Below are positions 1,639-15,494 of a DNA stretch of 40,869 nt, in pieces. The stretch is from assembly GCA_947624875.1 (NCBI GenBank), contig CANQMA010000012.1:1-40869 (forward strand), written 5' to 3'. The notes beneath the pieces are model-generated. The model made no database searches and had not been told where the DNA came from. It saw only the letters and a program-made list of their open reading frames with translations. Numbering within the stretch: the first letter of the stretch is position 1; the number at the start of each line of letters is the position of its first letter. Position numbers and translations under genes: made by a program. This DNA is from an uncultured Lachnospiraceae bacterium. GTDB taxonomy: Bacteria > Bacillota > Clostridia > Lachnospirales > Lachnospiraceae.

Positions 1639-1672
1639 AATGGTTTCATTGATATACAAAAGGGGTATCCGT

Positions 1673-4300
1673 ATGGCTGAAATTTCCCAGAACAACACAA
1701 AAAAACATTTATGTATCGGGATTCTTGCCCATGTAGACGGCGGCAAGACCACGCTTTCAGAGGCGATTTTATATCTGACAGGGAAAATAAATAAATTAGG
1801 GCGCGTGGATCATAAAGACGCTTTTTTAGACAACAATGCAATGGAGCGGGAGCGCGGCATTACTATTTTTTCCAAGCAGGCAGTCGTTGAATATGAAGAT
1901 ATGCAGATTACCCTGCTGGATACGCCGGGACACGTGGATTTTTCCGCAGAAATGGAACGGACGCTTCAGGTGCTTGATTACGCGGTTCTGATTGTCAGCG
2001 GAAGCGAGGGCGTACAGGGACATACGGAAACGCTCTGGAAATTGTTAAAACGGTATTCGATACCGGTATTTATTTTTGTAAACAAAATGGATATGCCCGG
2101 AACAAATAAAGAGTTCAGTGCCGAAAATATGCGTCAGAGGCTTGGGGATAATATCGTTGATTTTTCAGCGCAGGCGATTGACTATGAAGCCGTTGCCATG
2201 TGTGACGAAGCTGTTTTGGAGCATTACATGGAGACTGGCGTTATTCCGGATTATATGATTTCGGGATTGATTCATGAGCGCAGGCTGTTCCCATGTTTTT
2301 ACGGTTCTGCGTTGAAAAACAAAGGCGTCGATACGCTGCTCCAAGGGATTAGAAGATATGCCTGCGAGCCGGTTTACTCTGACGAATTTGGCGCAAAGGT
2401 CTACAAAATCAGCAAAGATAAAGAAGGCGCGCGGCTGACGCACATGAAAATCACCGGAGGAATCTTAAAAGTCCGGGACGAAGTCTGCGGCATTACTGAC
2501 GGGGAAGAATGGAGCGCTAAAGTAAATGATATCCGGATTTATTCGGGTGAAAAATACAGCGCGGTTCAGGCTGCCTTGGCAGGGTGCGTCTGCGCTGTCG
2601 CAGGTTTGGAGAAAACTTATGCAGGTCAGGGGCTTGGAATCGAAGCAGAGTCTGAAAAGCCGGATTTACAGCCGGTATTATCATACAGTATTCAGTTTCC
2701 GCCGCATTGTAATGCAAATCAGGTCTATGCATGGTTGAAAGAACTCGAAGAAGAAGATCCGACTTTAAAAGTACAGTGGAATGAGGAAACAAAAGAGATC
2801 AATGTGTGCGTCATGGGGCCGGTGCAAATTCAGGTTTTGAAAGCAATGATTTCAGAACGCTATGGACTTCAGGTCGAATTTGGCGCAGGAAAAATTCTTT
2901 ATAAAGAAACCATCTTGGATTCCGTAGAGGGTGTCGGGCATTTTGAACCGCTTCGCCATTATGCGGAGGTTCACCTGCTGCTCGAGCCCGGAGAGCCGGG
3001 CAGCGGGATTACTTTTGAAAGCGCAGTCAATGAAAGTTTTCTAAGCCGGAACTGGCAGCGGCTGATTATGACACATCTTGCGGAAAAAACGCATCGGGGC
3101 GTTTTGTGCGGAGCGCCGGTGACAGATATTCATTTTACGTTAATCGCAGGGAAAGCGCATTTAAAACATACGGAAGGCGGAGATTTCCGTCAGGCGACAT
3201 ACCGCGCGGTAAGACAGGGGTTGAAAAAGGCAAAAAGCATTTTGCTTGAGCCGTATTATGATTTTGTACTTCAAATCCCGTCAGAAAGCGTCGGCCGTGC
3301 GATGACGGATATCAGCCGTATGGAAGGGTATGTGGGCGCACCAAAGGTTCAGGGAGAATACAGTATTCTCAACGGATATGCGCCAGTTGCCACCATGAGG
3401 GATTATCTCAATGAGGTCAATGAATATACGCATGGCAAAGGGATGCTGACTTTAAAATATAAAGGGTATGCGCCATGTCATAATGCTGACGAGGTGATTG
3501 CGGCTGTTGGATATGACAGTGAAGCGGACTTGAAAAATCCGACCGGTTCGGTTTTCTGTGAGCATGGTTCCGGAATTTATGTGCCATGGAATGAAGTGGA
3601 AAATTATATGCATGTAAAAACCGATACCAATTATAATCAGGCGTATGACGTCACTTGGGAAATGCCGAAAAAAGCAACGAAAAAAGAGCATCAGGACAGC
3701 TATGCCGCAGACAAAGAACTGATGGCAATTTTTGAACAGACTTACGGGCCGGTGAATCGACGGAATACTTCGCAAAAGAAAACAAAATCTTATGAGCCAG
3801 AGAAAAAGACAACGCAGGCAGGAAAGAAAAAACAAAATCTTCCGGAATGTATTTTGATAGACGGATATAACATCATTTTTGCCTGGGAAGATTTAAAACA
3901 TCTGGCGGCTGAAAATATCGATGCCGCAAGAGACCGGCTGCTGGACAGGCTTTCCAATTATCAGGGATATACCGGCAGAACAGTGATTGTAGTTTTTGAC
4001 GCCTATAATGTGAAACGGCACAGGGAAACTGTTTACCGGCACCAGAATGTCTATGTAGTTTTTACGAAAGAGGCAGAAACTGCCGATATGTATATTGCAA
4101 AAACAACGCATCAGATGGCAAACCGGTACAAGGTGATAGTTGCCACCTCCGACGCGCTGGAACAGCTCATTATTATGGGACATGGAGCCCTGCGCATGTC
4201 AGCGATGAATCTTTACGAGGAGATGAGAGCAGTGGAAACTGCAATTTCTGAAAAAATCAACACAGACAGCAGATTGGAAAATTATGTGATTAAAAATTAA
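1673..4300 (+). CDS. TetM/EF-G-type ribosomal GTPase fused to a YacP/Rae1-type NYN nuclease domain
   Basis: The protein has 875 residues against about 640 for TetM/TetO. The GTPase motifs are intact: P-loop AHVDGGKTT (19-27), RERGIT (59-64), DTPGH (83-87) and NKMD (137-140). EF-G-like domains II-V follow to about residue 697. After a Lys/Gln-rich linker (about 697-722), residues about 724-865 form a NYN/PIN-like domain of the YacP (Rae1) type. It carries ILIDGYN (Asp730), VVFDAYN (Asp776), ETADMYIAK (Asp805) and ATSD (Asp827), which supply the expected acidic cluster. Known relatives act in the ribosomal A site: TetM expels tetracycline, and Bacillus Rae1 cleaves mRNA there. The domain IV loop is LKH (497-499) where TetM has Ser-Pro-Val, so drug release is doubtful. 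The start at 1673 is supported by AAGGGG 8 nt upstream; ATG 1640 in the same frame is possible. Annotation pipelines would probably call it a tetracycline-resistance protein. Confidence 0.9.
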   Translation: MAEISQNNTKKHLCIGILAHVDGGKTTLSEAILYLTGKINKLGRVDHKDAFLDNNAMERERGITIFSKQAVVEYEDMQITLLDTPGHVDFSAEMERTLQVLDYAVLIVSGSEGVQGHTETLWKLLKRYSIPVFIFVNKMDMPGTNKEFSAENMRQRLGDNIVDFSAQAIDYEAVAMCDEAVLEHYMETGVIPDYMISGLIHERRLFPCFYGSALKNKGVDTLLQGIRRYACEPVYSDEFGAKVYKISKDKEGARLTHMKITGGILKVRDEVCGITDGEEWSAKVNDIRIYSGEKYSAVQAALAGCVCAVAGLEKTYAGQGLGIEAESEKPDLQPVLSYSIQFPPHCNANQVYAWLKELEEEDPTLKVQWNEETKEINVCVMGPVQIQVLKAMISERYGLQVEFGAGKILYKETILDSVEGVGHFEPLRHYAEVHLLLEPGEPGSGITFESAVNESFLSRNWQRLIMTHLAEKTHRGVLCGAPVTDIHFTLIAGKAHLKHTEGGDFRQATYRAVRQGLKKAKSILLEPYYDFVLQIPSESVGRAMTDISRMEGYVGAPKVQGEYSILNGYAPVATMRDYLNEVNEYTHGKGMLTLKYKGYAPCHNADEVIAAVGYDSEADLKNPTGSVFCEHGSGIYVPWNEVENYMHVKTDTNYNQAYDVTWEMPKKATKKEHQDSYAADKELMAIFEQTYGPVNRRNTSQKKTKSYEPEKKTTQAGKKKQNLPECILIDGYNIIFAWEDLKHLAAENIDAARDRLLDRLSNYQGYTGRTVIVVFDAYNVKRHRETVYRHQNVYVVFTKEAETADMYIAKTTHQMANRYKVIVATSDALEQLIIMGHGALRMSAMNLYEEMRAVETAISEKINTDSRLENYVIKN

Positions 4301-7921: not shown

Positions 7922-8521
7922 TTACAATGCATGAGGGCTCTTAATGACAGGCTGAATCTGTTTTCCCAAAAGAGCATATTCAATTGTATCTTCAATCAAT
8001 TCTAAATGAGCAATCATAGAATTTGGCTTTGTCAAATAATTGTCCTGTCCGAATGGAACAAAATAAATATTTTTGGTGTTTAATAAGATTCCGATATTTT
8101 TCAGGTTCATTCCCAGCGCATCATTGGTGCTCAGAAAAATTACCAACGGACGGTTGTTGCGAAGATGTGCCTTTGCAGCCATTAAAACCGGAGTGTCAGA
8201 GATTCCATTTGCCAGTTTGGATAATGTATTTCCGGTACATGGGGCAATGATTAAGAGGTCCAGAAGTCCTTTTGGTCCAATTGGTTCTGCGCCGGGAATG
8301 GTTGTAATAGGCGGCTTTCCACTAATTTTTTCAGCCATTTTTAGAAACTCCTCCGACCTGCCGAATCGACTGTCTGTGGAAGAAGCATGATCAGAAAAAA
8401 TCATGGTAAGATTGGCATTTGTTTCAGATAAATCTTTCATTTTACGAAACATGTCCTTGTAGGTACAATAGGAACCGGTAATTCCAATCCCAATGTTTTT
8501 ATCAGTAAAGTCATGTGCCAT
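7922..8521 (-). CDS. spoVFB: Dipicolinate synthase subunit B
   Basis: This 199-residue flavoprotein-like subunit, of the flavin-binding decarboxylase fold, works with SpoVFA. Together they turn dihydroxy-tetrahydrodipicolinate into dipicolinic acid in the mother cell; the product is stored with calcium in the spore core. The GITGSYCTYKDM start and the LLIIAPCTGNTLSKLANGISDTPVLMAAKAHLRNNRPLV core are typical, the latter being the phosphate- or flavin-binding part. Length fits the family (about 195-200). Its ATG follows the spoVFA stop directly, with no gap, and an AAAGGA lies within the end of spoVFA, so translation is probably coupled. Presence of this gene implies endospore formation by the SpoVF route rather than the EtfA route used in several Clostridium species. 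Confidence 0.95.
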   Translation of the reverse strand: MAHDFTDKNIGIGITGSYCTYKDMFRKMKDLSETNANLTMIFSDHASSTDSRFGRSEEFLKMAEKISGKPPITTIPGAEPIGPKGLLDLLIIAPCTGNTLSKLANGISDTPVLMAAKAHLRNNRPLVIFLSTNDALGMNLKNIGILLNTKNIYFVPFGQDNYLTKPNSMIAHLELIEDTIEYALLGKQIQPVIKSPHAL

Positions 8522-9334
8522 TTATCTCATCCTTTCTATATATGATATTATTGTTCCGGCAATAAATTCCCCGGCAGCCTGCGGCGTATATTTTCCGGGC
8601 AGGCCGGGGCATGTATGGAGAGATAAATCATTTCGATATGCATTTTCTTTTTCGAGCCCATAAGGAGCAGAAGAAACATCATATAAAACGCAGTTACGGT
8701 TGATTTTTTCATAATGATTCAAATTAAGTATCTTTTGTGGAACCGTGTTAATGAGAAGCTGACAGTCCGGTAATAGAAGATGGAGTTTCCCATATTCTGC
8801 AATCCGATAGCCAAAAGAAGCGGCGCGTGCAAGATTTTTTGCAGTATGATCATAAATAGAAATTTCTGCATCAAATCCCTTCAGCAAAGAGGCAATGTTC
8901 ATACCACATCTTCCAAAACCAAGAATTAAAACCTTACTATTTCGCAGAGAAAAATCTGTTTCGGTTATAATTTTTCCTAATAATGCCTCTGCAGTCAGGT
9001 AGGCGTTTTTCCATACAAGAATCGGATCGTCTAATAGGTCATAAAGCTGCAGTCTCATTTTATCTGCCAGAGAACGCATTTTTTCAGAAACAGAACCTGC
9101 AAAAACCACCTGATTTTTTTGCAAAAGTCCTAAAAATGTCTCGGCAGGAAACGCAGAATGATAATCACAATTGATATACGCGCCATTTTTCAAAAATGGA
9201 GTACCGCATAAAATGAAATCGTCATCGTGAAAATCCATGTTGTTTTTGATATATGCATCAAACCCCCGCTCTTTTAGAACATCACAGGCGAAGGTCTGTC
9301 TCTTGTCGCCGGATAAAATTGCTATTTTTTTCAT
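8522..9334 (-). CDS. spoVFA: Dipicolinate synthase subunit A
   Basis: The 270-residue catalytic subunit has an N-terminal domain of about 120 residues and a C-terminal Rossmann domain with VLILGFGRCGMNIASLLKGF (NAD(P)-binding glycine-rich loop). The end, CPGLPGKYTPQAAGEFIAGTI, is the usual SpoVFA signature. GGAGG 5 nt before ATG 9334 fixes the start; longer in-frame starts (9346, 9526) would add residues with no homology. It is the first gene of a spoVFA-spoVFB-(asnB) run. The 135-bp region to the divergent CotH-like start must hold its promoter. In Bacillus this operon is sigma-K dependent, but I could not find a convincing sigma-K or sigma-E match here. Confidence 0.93.
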   Translation of the reverse strand: MKKIAILSGDKRQTFACDVLKERGFDAYIKNNMDFHDDDFILCGTPFLKNGAYINCDYHSAFPAETFLGLLQKNQVVFAGSVSEKMRSLADKMRLQLYDLLDDPILVWKNAYLTAEALLGKIITETDFSLRNSKVLILGFGRCGMNIASLLKGFDAEISIYDHTAKNLARAASFGYRIAEYGKLHLLLPDCQLLINTVPQKILNLNHYEKINRNCVLYDVSSAPYGLEKENAYRNDLSLHTCPGLPGKYTPQAAGEFIAGTIISYIERMR

Positions 9335-9385
9335 TGCTGCCTCCATACTGTAAGATATTCCCAAACTTTTTTTTCGTGCAATATT

Positions 9386-9417
9386 TTGCTGTTTTTTTCC
9401 GTATGAAATGATATAAT
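9386..9417 (+). promoter_or_regulatory. Probable promoter of the cotH-like gene in the divergent region
   Basis: TATAAT at 9412-9417 is an exact -10. The best -35 candidate, TTGCTG (9386-9391), is 20 nt away, longer than ideal, so only the -10 is reasonably supported. The 135-bp region 9335-9469 also has to contain the promoter for spoVFAB on the other strand, which I could not place. Confidence 0.4.
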
Positions 9418-9469
9418 AAAAAACAATGAAGTATGCACGGAAAATTTCATTATGGGAACGGAGGAAACA

Positions 9470-11290
9470 ATGAAAAAAATTTTTGGAAGTCTTGTAATTG
9501 TCTTTTTGATGATGATGCTTGGACATGTCAGTGTCAATGCAGAAGCAGTTTATGATGCATCTGATATTGAACGGATTTATATTACTTCAGAAACTGCACT
9601 GTCAAGCCTTCAGAAAGAATATGCAGATGCGCGGGTAGAAGTTGTTTTGAAAGACGGTACGGTAGAGATTTCCGATTTTCAGGCAAGTGTGAAACTGCGG
9701 GGAAATTCTACCTCAAAAGCCGAAAAAAAACCATTCAAAGTCAAATTCAGCACAAAACAAAGCGTATTGGGAATGGATCCAGGGAAAAAATGGAATTTAC
9801 TGGCAAATGCCTTTGACAAAACGCTGATACGAAACAAACTGGCATTTGAACTGGCAGACCAGATTGGTTTAAAATATATCAGCCAGAGCAGATTCGTCGA
9901 TGTTTATTATAATGGAATATTACAGGGAAATTATCTGATTACGGAACCTGTGGAGTCCGGCAAAAACCAGGTGGATATTGAGGAGACGGAAACGTCTGCT
10001 GATTTTATGATTGAACTGGAAAGAGAACGGTATGAGTCTGATGTTACCTATGTAAACAGTAAAAGCGGAGTCCGATTTGCCATCAATGTTCCGGAAACGC
10101 CGACGGCAACGCAGACAACGGGCATTAAAAGTTATGTTGACAAAACAGAAACGGCCTTGAAAACTTATAAACTGTCTGAGTATGAAAAATATATCGATGT
10201 TGACTCTTTTGTCAATTATTATATTGTATGTGAGATTTTTAAGGCAGTGGATTTTAATTACAGTTCCACACGGTTTTATGTAAAAGATGGAAAAATGTAT
10301 GCCGGACCGATATGGGATGTTGATTTATCATCCGGAAATGCTTCGTCGAAATTTTATAAAGATTATTATAAAGACGGCGTAAGCTATAAGGATTTGTATT
10401 GTACAGAAATGAAATGGTATCATTATCTGATTCAAAGTGATGAGTTTGTACAGAAAGTGAATGCAAGGCTTCATGAAATATATCCAATTGTGGAAAATAT
10501 GTATCAGACGAACGCGCGGGGAGTAAACAGAATTGATTTTCTGACAGAAACCTATCAAAAATCATTTGCGCGAAATTATGCAGACATAAAAGACGGCGGT
10601 GCAGGATGGAGTCTGACAAAAAGATATTCTGTGTGTGATAATCCACAGGGACTGGAACTTGACCCGCAGCCGGCGGCTTATGAAGAAAATGTATCTCTGT
10701 TGAAATCGTGGCTCTCAAATCGTGTTTCTTATTTAGAGAAAGAATGGGCGGGCATCAAAAACAATTATGTTGACAGCCTTGTAATTGAGAAGAAATCTTC
10801 AGTAAAGGTTCATCTGTCATGGTTTAACCATGGAGTTGCAGATGGAAACGAAATTTATCTGAAGATTGCAAAAGGAAAATATAAACTGGTAAAGACGATT
10901 AAAAACGGTCTGACTCAGGAATGTACAATTAAAAATATAAAACCGGGTGTGAAATACTCATTCCGGGTACGTTCTTATATATTGTCCGCATCTGGAAAGG
11001 TTTATAGTGACTATGTTTCTAAGAGCAAAAAACTGAAGTTGAAATCACCGAAATTAAAAATAAAAAAAATATCAAACAATCGAAGAAAATTGACTTGGAA
11101 AAAGACAGCCGGAGCAGATGGTTACGTCATCTATGGAGGCAGTCGGAAAAAGAATTTAAAGAAACTAAAAACCATCAAAGGGGTTCAAAAAACAAGTTAT
11201 CTTAAGAAAAATATCAAATCAGGGAAAAAATATTATTTTAAAGTAAAGGCTTATGTGAAAGTTCAGGGAAAGAAGTATTACAGTAAATAA
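9470..11290 (+). CDS. Secreted CotH-family kinase-like protein with two Fn3-like domains
   Basis: The 606-residue protein starts with a signal peptide (residues 1-25, cut near VNA/EA). A CotH kinase-like domain follows (about 30-430) with KLRGNSTSKAEKKPFKVKF, FMIELER and GPIWDVDLSSG (Trp282, Asp283, Asp285, the likely metal-binding acids). Bacillus CotH phosphorylates spore coat proteins. This one carries a signal peptide, so it would act outside the cell or, if made in the mother cell, in the intermembrane space. Residues about 440-606 are two lysine-rich fibronectin-III-like domains, a tail shared with the SGNH proteins at the end of the window. GGAGG 5 nt before ATG 9470 sets the start; ATG 9452 is in frame but lies before this site. 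The LCP gene begins 30 nt later, probably in the same operon. It diverges from the dipicolinate operon, which supports but does not prove a sporulation role. Confidence 0.85.
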   Translation: MKKIFGSLVIVFLMMMLGHVSVNAEAVYDASDIERIYITSETALSSLQKEYADARVEVVLKDGTVEISDFQASVKLRGNSTSKAEKKPFKVKFSTKQSVLGMDPGKKWNLLANAFDKTLIRNKLAFELADQIGLKYISQSRFVDVYYNGILQGNYLITEPVESGKNQVDIEETETSADFMIELERERYESDVTYVNSKSGVRFAINVPETPTATQTTGIKSYVDKTETALKTYKLSEYEKYIDVDSFVNYYIVCEIFKAVDFNYSSTRFYVKDGKMYAGPIWDVDLSSGNASSKFYKDYYKDGVSYKDLYCTEMKWYHYLIQSDEFVQKVNARLHEIYPIVENMYQTNARGVNRIDFLTETYQKSFARNYADIKDGGAGWSLTKRYSVCDNPQGLELDPQPAAYEENVSLLKSWLSNRVSYLEKEWAGIKNNYVDSLVIEKKSSVKVHLSWFNHGVADGNEIYLKIAKGKYKLVKTIKNGLTQECTIKNIKPGVKYSFRVRSYILSASGKVYSDYVSKSKKLKLKSPKLKIKKISNNRRKLTWKKTAGADGYVIYGGSRKKNLKKLKTIKGVQKTSYLKKNIKSGKKYYFKVKAYVKVQGKKYYSK

Positions 11291-13748: not shown

Positions 13749-13777
13749 TTGAAAAGAGTTCATATTTATTGTATAAT
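13749..13777 (+). promoter_or_regulatory. Sigma-A promoter of glnS
   Basis: TTGAAA (13749-13754), 17 nt, then TATAAT (13772-13777). Transcription would begin near 13784, so coding starts before 13821 are excluded. The short leader leaves no room for a T-box. Confidence 0.8.
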
Positions 13778-13820
13778 TTTTGAATCATTGGATGAATACT
13801 GTACTATAACGGAGAAAAAT

Positions 13821-15494
13821 ATGGAAGCAGAAACAAACATTACAGAATCAAAAAATTTTATTGAGCAAATAATTGATAAGGATTTGGAAGAAGGACGGTT
13901 TGACCATGTTCAGACTCGATTTCCACCGGAGCCAAACGGGTATCTCCATATTGGCCATGCAAAATCCATTCTATTAAACTATGGATTGGCACAGGAATAT
14001 CACGGAAAGTTTAATATGCGCTTTGATGATACCAATCCAACCAAGGAAAAGGAAGAATTTGTCAATTCCATTTTGGATGATATTCGGTGGCTTGGCGCTG
14101 ACTGGGAAGATCGTTTATTTTTTGCATCAGATTATTTTGAACAGATGTATGAGGCTGCTGTAAAGTTGATAAAAAAAGGAAAAGCCTACGTCTGCGACCT
14201 TTCAGCAGAAGAAATCCGCAAATACCGCGGTACCTTGACAGAACCCGGCAAAAACAGTCCCTATCGTGACAGAAGTATTGAAGAAAACCTCGAATTGTTC
14301 GAAAATATGAAAAACGGGATGTATCAGGATGGTGAAAAAGTCCTTCGGGCAAAAATTGATATGTCCTCGTCCAATATCAATATGCGTGACCCGGTAATTT
14401 ACAGGGTGGCCCATATGGAACATCATAATACCGGAAACAAATGGTGTATCTATCCAATGTATGATTTTGCCCATCCGATTGAAGATGCGATTGAAAAAGT
14501 GACGCATTCCATCTGTACTTTGGAATTTGAGGATCACAGACCGCTTTATGACTGGGTGGTCCGTGAACTGGAGTATCCAAACCCTCCGAGACAGATAGAG
14601 TTTGCCAAATTGTATCTGACGAATGTTGTCACCGGTAAACGTTATATTAAGAAGCTTGTTGAAGACGGGATTGTAGACGGCTGGGACGATCCGAGACTTG
14701 TTTCAATTGCGGCGCTTCGGAGAAGAGGATTTACACCGGAGTCCATTAAAATGTTTGTTGAACTGTGTGGAATATCCAAGAGCCAGAGTTCCGTAGATTA
14801 CGCCATGCTGGAATATTGTATCCGCGAGGATTTGAATTTAAAGAAACCCCGCATTATGGCTGTGCTTGATCCGATTAAGCTGATAATCGACAATTATCCG
14901 GAAGATCAGGTAGAATGGTTTGATGTGGATAACAATGTAAAAAATCCGGAGCTGGGTAAGAGAAAAGTTCCATTTTGCAGAGAACTCTATATAGACCGGG
15001 AAGATTTCATGGAAGAACCGCCAAAAAAATATTTTCGGTTGTATCCGGGCAATGAAGTTCGTTTAATGAATGCATATTTTGTTACCTGTGTGGATTATAT
15101 CAAAGACGAAACGGGAAAGGTCGTGGAAATCCATTGTACTTATGATCCTGAAACACGCAGTGGAAGCGGTTTTACCGGACGCAAGGTCAAAGGAACCATT
15201 CACTGGGTTTCTGCAAAACATGCGGTACAGGCAGAAGTCCGGCTTTATGAAAATATCGTTGATGAAGAGAAAGGTAAATTAAATGAAGATGGAAGCTTAA
15301 ATCTGAATCCAAATTCATTGACTGTTTTAAAAGACTGTTACATTGAGCCGAGTATTGAAAATGTAAAACCGGAAGATAAATTTCAGTTTGTGAGAACCGG
15401 CTATTTCTGTGCGGATATGCACGATTATACACCGGAGCATCCGGTATTTAATAGAATTGTATCTCTAAAAAGTTCCTTCAGATTATCCAAGTAA
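13821..15494 (+). CDS. glnS: Glutaminyl-tRNA synthetase
   Basis: This 557-residue class I enzyme charges tRNA-Gln directly with glutamine. [18 protein letters not shown] holds the HIGH motif exactly at residues 43-46, and [14 protein letters not shown] is the typical GluRS/GlnRS follow-on. [30 protein letters not shown] marks it as GlnRS rather than GluRS. The KMSKS-type loop reads [11 protein letters not shown] (around residues 269-279) where E. coli has VMSKRKL; the lysine that matters is kept (Lys273). The anticodon-binding beta-barrels fill the rest. GGAG 6 nt before ATG 13821 fixes the start and agrees with the promoter. Many Firmicutes lack GlnRS and use GatCAB amidation instead, so presence of glnS is a mark of certain clostridial groups. 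Confidence 0.95.

Follow-up and report, generated by a model that had tools for sequence, protein, structure and literature searches.

The closest described counterparts of the protein considered here are the tetracycline ribosomal-protection proteins TetM and TetO and the bacterial nuclease Rae1 (YacP). Rae1 is described as a nuclease of the ribosomal A site in the available text of PMC6613710, and an article on its distribution (Condon 2018) is cited in the accessible part of PMC12320835. In TetM, the tip of domain IV occupies the tetracycline site on the 30S subunit, with Pro509 overlapping the drug site (available text of PMC7456112); the accessible portion of PMC8161019 contains nothing on this tip. 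The two kinds of module have also been reported in one protein: in its available passages, Atkinson 2015 (BMC Genomics 16:78, PMC4342817) states that the Tet proteins of ten Clostridiales species acquired a YacP-like NYN ribonuclease (RNase) domain and suggests testing their RNase ability toward ribosomal RNA (rRNA) and their role in resistance. In this study, we analyzed a 40,869-nucleotide stretch of DNA from an uncultured Lachnospiraceae bacterium (contig CANQMA010000012.1; hereafter, the window), which codes for an 875-residue fusion of a translational GTPase and an NYN_YacP nuclease domain. Judging from domain content, phylogeny and gene neighborhood, the window protein is the organism's own Rae1, carried on a dedicated EF-G-type GTPase outside the Tet family. 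The proteins of Atkinson 2015 have the same architecture but are read in the passages available as Tet proteins with a possible RNase activity toward rRNA or transfer RNA (tRNA), whereas here a separate GTPase clade holds the resident Rae1. An initial annotation of the locus, made from its sequence, knew of no functional description; this has to be corrected, since the architecture was already in print with a proposed RNase role (available text of PMC4342817). Among the literature matches listed, no description of the fusion beyond Atkinson 2015 was found. The architecture being previously known, what is new here is the identification of the fused nuclease as Rae1, transferred a single time to a distinct, non-Tet GTPase clade, and the prevalence of this form in the window's family and class.

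The GTPase and the NYN domain, which the initial annotation had assigned to one protein, are indeed encoded in a single 875-residue open reading frame, with the Pfam domains, including NYN_YacP, in order (Table 1). The GTPase half has the five domains and intact GTPase motifs of the EF-G family, although the match of domain II lies below the Pfam cut-off and is the only one in the fusion to do so. The nuclease half belongs to the Rae1/YacP domain family (Pfam match 8.4e-47; 159.7 bits against a cut-off of 24.6) and matches the Bacillus subtilis YacP structures 5mq8 and 5mq9 (E 6e-30). For conservation analysis, we aligned 80 rows, namely the window protein plus relatives found in named genomes, of which 79 out of 80 were used, as L185 gave no usable frame; these relatives are the best 80 of at least 598, and their hosts include Blautia, Mediterraneibacter, Anaerotruncus colihominis, Flavonifractor and Intestinimonas butyriciproducens. 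The GTPase motifs AHVDxGKT, RGIT, DTPGH and NKxD are intact in 80/80 rows. D730, N733, D776, D805 and D827 are likewise identical in all 80, which bears out the acidic cluster Asp730, Asp776, Asp805 and Asp827 as previously read, down to its numbering. The fusion thus resembles Rae1 of B. subtilis in the NYN domain, in the four Asp residues and in orthology by tree and rlmB locus (see below). It differs in that B. subtilis Rae1 is a free protein (181-residue chains) with a C-terminal tail, whereas the window Rae1 is tethered to a GTPase and its tail is gone.

Among the genomes listed for the window's family, the fused form predominates, and in the class it is common. The assembly from which the window comes (1.79 Mb; 84% complete) yielded one NYN_YacP, that in the fusion. 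In the family sample, NYN_YacP occurs in 268 of 299 genomes (one match in 262, two in six), and matches to the GTPase profile likewise occur in 268 of 299 at E 1e-110. NYN is missing from 31 genomes and the GTPase likewise from 31; in each case, 11 of them were deduced from gaps in the genome numbering. After 15 unclear genomes were checked, both modules were counted in 264 of 299 genomes, including G125 and G163, whose GTPase parts are damaged or divergent, and neither in 30. NYN without a GTPase of the fusion's clade was found in four (G005, G014, G060 and G287), and the GTPase without NYN in one (G281), where the match starts at a contig edge; the clade GTPase is therefore present in 265/299. 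In the class sample, 104 of 156 genomes have NYN_YacP over the cut-off, with 57 fused, 47 stand-alone and none having both; the 57 were called by open frame and include G341 (broken) and G368 (cut short). The phylum sample yielded 71 of 119 genomes over the cut-off, eight of them fused. The initial annotation had presented the protein as a stand-alone factor, but these results do not show it to be an extra one: the fusion is the only NYN_YacP found in the genome, and fused and stand-alone forms are mutually exclusive in the class sample.

Of 1059 records in a plasmid collection that have a match at E 1e-20, just two align with 80% or more of the fusion; the one listed of these two is a 518-kb Monoglobus record labelled plasmid. 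Two unverified, unannotated fecal scaffolds named 'Bacteriophage sp.' also carry the fusion (L109, MT835563; L110, MT835514). We considered a phage origin and rejected it, as these scaffolds are probably host DNA. IMG/VR holds only two loci (L296 and L297), each beginning at a contig end inside the clade GTPase, and PHROG 6880 matches the GTPase part and may derive from Tet genes on phages.

The sampled fusions trace, by the phylogeny of their GTPases, to one joining. In a tree of 86 GTPase rows, 59 fused and 17 unfused GTPases form one 76-row clade (support 100) with a long stem, within which the 59 fused ones constitute a single clade (Shimodaira-Hasegawa-like approximate likelihood ratio test, SH-aLRT, 99) with the 17 unfused ones outside; eight Tet and Tet-like rows are separate (support 90), and two EF-G rows complete the set. 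This is a quick tree with long branches flagged. Duplicates, L098 (truncated GTPase) and L149 (cut NYN) were omitted as tree rows, whereas the two scaffolds labelled as phage and two nearly identical Monoglobus sequences were included. The NYN tree (94 rows) places the 59 fused domains together with 11 stand-alone ones of the same family group (100/100), apart from the 24 other stand-alone rows; the 59 fused NYN domains by themselves have moderate support (87/88).

Stand-alone yacP is usually found just after rlmB. In 4/4 genomes checked outside the family (G440, G401, G375 and G469), no more than 40 bp separate the two genes. In one of these, rlmB and yacP are adjacent (L287, G440), in what we take to be the order cysS-mrnC-rlmB-yacP-sigH-like. 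Within the family, rlmB adjoins stand-alone yacP in 8 of 11 genomes. In five of five fused genomes checked (G000, G258, G242, G093 and G320), the rlmB cluster is present without yacP, and each has a single NYN_YacP, inside the fusion. In these five, rlmB sits together with a gene that is presumably mrnC, and in L293 a gene that we take to be sigH starts 28 bp after rlmB. Taken together, the NYN tree (100/100), the rlmB neighborhood (8/11) and the absence of yacP from it in fused genomes (5/5) identify the fused domain as an ortholog of the rlmB-linked yacP. Given the NYN tree and the rlmB synteny, we infer that the resident yacP moved onto the GTPase.

The GTPase belongs to the EF-G superfamily, yet is not EF-G itself: it scores 313.7 bits with the NCBIfam EF-G equivalog model against a cut-off of 659.4. 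Its best NCBIfam match is tet_protect, with 428.6 bits, which is under the cut-off of 775; with the TetM/W/O/S model it reaches 289.5 bits against a cut-off of 1100. As a control, a true Tet protein of another family genome (L104) scores 819.9 and 1282.7 bits, respectively. TetM and TetO share with the fusion the EF-G domain order and 28–32% identity over approximately 600 residues, but the fusion has another domain IV tip, an extra Cys/His extension, no Tet C-terminal motif and a separate position in the tree. At the tip, Ser508-Pro509-Val510 of TetM (numbering of the TetM gene compared) align with Leu497-Lys498-His499 of the fusion. Because it falls under the NCBIfam cut-offs, is without Ser508-Pro509-Val510 and lies outside the Tet clade, the GTPase is classified as a relative of the Tet proteins outside the Tet family. 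Five Tet-like GTPases (L269, L270, L280, L281 and L103) form a further group with the tips HTHPLDF, HTKAPDF or HSNPGDF; those tested (L269, L281 and L103) score below the Tet cut-off. The 18 unfused clade GTPases found (e.g., L095) have the same extension as the fusion and, for the nine family ones, 40–47% identity to it. Unlike the fusion, they end just past the extension and have neither linker nor NYN. We know of no function for these unfused proteins.

Domain IV is the best-conserved domain of the fusion, with a mean column identity of 0.83 (G domain, 0.71; NYN, 0.73) in 21 family fusions (20 picked by NYN match, plus the window). KHTEGGDFR, at its tip, is the top 9-mer of the protein in this set and is exact in 21/21. 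In a wider set of 37 fusions chosen by NYN, which excludes G125 (tip absent) and G163 (matched at two ends only), the core HTxGxDFR is found in 37/37 and the exact 9-mer in just 28, so that strict invariance of KHTEGGDFR was ruled out; eight of the nine other tips read HTxGGDFR, and L133 has HTQGDDFR. The 80 named loci were not counted for the tip because they were partly found through the tip pattern. Among the unfused GTPases, the 9-mer is exact in 13/18, and the other five differ only at Glu (S, N or C). H496 of the tip aligns with the tip His of EF-G, where TetM has Tyr. Since the equivalent tip of TetM enters the 30S drug site, the conserved tip probably lets the factor read something specific at the decoding/drug site of the 30S subunit.

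Behind domain V, the Cys/His extension stands in place of the Tet C-terminus; none of the TetM, TetO and EF-G sequences compared has it. Across a set of 22 sequences, both fused and unfused, C602, C629 and H647 do not vary; in the 80-row alignment, C602 and C629 are found in 80/80 rows, and H631 and H647 in 78/80 each. C602, H603, C629, H631 and H647 (window positions 3476–3613) look like a possible metal site around this extension.

The region between the GTPase and the nuclease is 66–120 residues long in 21 aligned fusions and mostly unconserved (mean column identity 0.33), but for one helix-like motif, approximately ELEEIFxRTYGP (more loosely, ELxxIFxRTYGP) followed by basic residues. This pattern was found in 101 of 117 linkers, a set that may include the same genome twice, vs 21/5850 shuffled linkers and 0/40 rows of stand-alone NYN, which represent 35 different genes. 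Among the 16 linkers missed, several still have the motif, with Tyr replacing Phe. The NYN domain has also changed at its C-terminus. In the window it ends at profile position 143 of 166 and is thus without the Rae1 tail. In the class-sample listing, with G368 set aside, the tail (profile positions ~144–166) is lost in 35/56 fusions vs 0/47 stand-alone proteins; by measured length, it is lost in 15/58 fused vs 0/35 different stand-alone genes. Because 21/56 of the class-sample fusions retain it, we treat its absence as a loss and not as exclusion from Rae1. The efp-suppressor allele R166P of B. subtilis Rae1 is interpreted by the authors who describe it as a loss of function (available text of PMC6613710). 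By structure-chain numbering, R166 falls in the missing tail region. An Arg that is invariant in the 35 stand-alone copies (R841 in the window) is relaxed in the fusions. The linker motif, the fusion-only tail loss and the invariant NYN site suggest that the modules became interdependent. The linker motif, tail loss and relaxed R841 would be explained if the GTPase had taken over ribosome docking.

On these grounds, we lean toward the view that a dedicated GTPase delivers the cell's Rae1 to paused ribosomes and that GTP gates the cut. The steps on the ribosome, and their order, are conjectural. The GTPase in its GTP form would enter ribosomes with an empty or paused A site, where its unusual domain IV tip would probe the decoding site. 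GTP hydrolysis would withdraw the tip, and the tethered NYN domain could then occupy the freed A site and cut the messenger RNA (mRNA). The cut ribosome would be handed to transfer-messenger RNA (tmRNA), and the mRNA fragments would decay; tmRNA was detected over the cut-off in 4/4 fused genomes searched. The C-terminal tail of Rae1 may have become dispensable because the GTPase supplies ribosome binding. This scheme retains from the initial annotation the predicted role in ribosome-dependent mRNA cleavage, which we regard as likely. It departs from the idea that both modules act in the A site at once, which is unlikely: a TetM-type domain IV tip and Rae1 use the same place, and the two modules would therefore have to take turns. 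We put forward more tentatively, as a possibility rather than an expectation, that the protein belongs to a distinct class of translational GTPase, separate from EF-G and Tet, and acts as a GTP-gated mRNA cutter: its own near-invariant tip would inspect the decoding site and license mRNA cleavage there by the tethered nuclease.

Several observations weigh against this coupling of the two modules. In the family, at least 13 genomes have a stand-alone NYN; of the 13 listed, nine carry a separate GTPase (G052, G185, G296, G199, G019, G090, G222, G047 and G148), which speaks for coupling, and four are without one, two of these being only 85–87% complete; G086 and G233, with short NYN frames and with NYN and GTPase at contig ends, were taken as assembly-split fusions and not counted as stand-alone. 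In the class sample, 43 of the 47 stand-alone-NYN genomes are without a clade GTPase, the four that have one all belonging to a single family code (f36), and four of the eight genomes with an unfused GTPase are without NYN_YacP (G322, G351, G325 and G365; GTPases L275, L276, L278 and L279). These counts indicate that Rae1 needs no such GTPase and that the GTPase has a use without Rae1; as judged from gene content, each module can work alone. A Rosetta-stone partnership, to which an early family count of 9/11 had pointed, was consequently rejected as proof, being outweighed by the counts of 4/47 and 4/8 and giving weak support only. Tail loss amounts to three changes on the tree, that is, few independent events, and the fusions of G129 and G211 are frame-broken in their assemblies. 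G401 has two unfused GTPase copies (L273 and L274). The G125 protein (L305:733–2775, minus strand) is a natural 680-residue fusion in which domains IV and V (approximately residues 405–647) are missing, whereas the G domain, domains II and III and the linker motif are retained and the NYN is intact; it speaks against a strict tip requirement in every host.

The separate occurrence of the modules would fit a protein having two jobs on one chain, in which the GTPase is a separate EF-G-like factor, the NYN domain is an ordinary Rae1 and fusion only raises the local concentration, with no GTP gating. The unfused GTPases in genomes without NYN_YacP (4/8), the stand-alone Rae1 genomes without the GTPase (43/47) and the long, mostly unconserved linker (66–120 residues, identity 0.33) all agree with it. 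We nevertheless consider it rather unlikely, given one fused clade extending over many family codes, the invariant NYN site, the conserved linker motif and the tail loss confined to fusions. The GTPase could also act after the cut: NYN would cleave first, and the GTPase would then clear or reset the ribosome, as EF-G or RF3 would, before tmRNA or recycling. EF2-family GTPases promote the displacement of another molecule from the ribosome, according to the available text of PMC4342817, and both the intact GTPase motifs and the alignment of H496 with the EF-G tip His accord with such a role; as the G125 variant keeps NYN without domains IV or V, this order of action seems distinctly unlikely.

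Two readings tie the protein to resistance or defense. As a tetracycline ribosomal-protection protein with its RNase as an extra resistance mechanism, as proposed by Atkinson 2015, it would have in its favor the printed proposal, the best NCBIfam match (tet_protect, 428.6 bits), TetO and TetM among the closest solved structures and the one fusion on the 518-kb Monoglobus record labelled plasmid. We find this reading improbable, since the score is far under the cut-off of 775 that the true Tet protein L104 exceeds (819.9), Ser508-Pro509-Val510 are replaced by Leu-Lys-His, the GTPase lies outside the Tet clade and is present in 265/299 family genomes, and just 2 of 1059 plasmid records cover at least 80% of the fusion. 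The suspicion that the architecture is filed under a tetracycline-resistance label held for Atkinson 2015, which files it under Tet, but not for the Monoglobus copy, annotated as 'translation factor GTPase family protein'. An anti-phage or abortive-infection role, with translation halted upon infection, is conceivable for a GTPase that carries a ribosome-directed RNase, and the initial annotation had considered defense. PADLOC, however, returned no families for the fusion, for one unfused GTPase or for one stand-alone NYN, IMG/VR contains only the two loci at contig starts, and the clade GTPase occurs in most family genomes (265/299); a defense function is thus very nearly discounted. We retain the GTP-gated cut by a GTPase-borne Rae1 as the preferred reading.

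The features of the fused gene are compiled in Table 1. In addition to ATG 1673, which has a plausible ribosome-binding site, there is an in-frame TTG at 1562.

Table 1. Features of the fused gene and its product, with positions in the window.
Feature	Position	Strand	Basis
Fused gene: translational GTPase, C-terminal extension, linker and NYN_YacP (Rae1) nuclease, 875 residues	1673..4300	+	Open reading frame, Pfam, relatives
Likely Shine-Dalgarno AAAAGGGG upstream of ATG 1673	1658..1665	+	Read from sequence
GTPase (G) domain, residues 10-229, G1-G4 motifs intact	1700..2359	+	Pfam GTP_EFTU 1.4e-53, conservation
EF-G domain II (EF-G_D2), residues 240-318	2390..2626	+	Pfam 23.8 bits, below the cut-off of 27
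EF-G domain III (EFG_III), residues 333-404	2669..2884	+	Pfam
EF-G domain IV (EFG_IV), residues 406-521	2888..3235	+	Pfam, conservation
Domain IV tip loop KHTEGGDFR, residues 498-506, at the place of TetM PVSTPADFR	3164..3190	+	Alignment
EF-G domain V (EFG_C), residues 524-604	3242..3484	+	Pfam
C-terminal extension, residues 605-647, conserved C629, H631 and H647 (C602 just ahead)	3485..3613	+	Alignments
Linker, residues 648-723, 76 residues	3614..3841	+	Alignment
Conserved linker motif, residues 681-697, KELMAIFEQTYGPVNRR in the window	3713..3763	+	Alignments
NYN_YacP (Rae1) domain, residues 727-867; D730, D776, D805, D827; no C-terminal tail	3851..4273	+	Pfam, structure match, conservation

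Elsewhere in the window, a dipicolinate synthase region (7922–9526, minus strand) includes DpaA by Pfam at 8522–9526 and points to a spore-former; 7922–8521 on the same strand presumably codes for the partner subunit. A CotH kinase protein with an fn3-like part (9452–11290, plus strand) adjoins a LytR-CpsA-Psr protein. The product of 13749–15494 (plus strand) is a Glu/Gln-type class I tRNA synthetase that has anticodon-binding domains and is likely glutaminyl-tRNA synthetase.

If the fusion is such a cutter, it would be the first translation factor known to us with its own mRNA nuclease. It opens to experiment the questions of how paused ribosomes are located by Rae1 and at what point its entry into the A site is allowed. 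It also calls for caution in resistance surveys, in that the fusion genes are not to be counted as tetracycline resistance. If the preferred reading is true, co-translational mRNA cleavage in many gut Clostridia would be run by a GTPase-nuclease chimera that goes under a resistance-like or generic label, and the GTP-gated cutter would be the sole Rae1 pathway in a large share of them.

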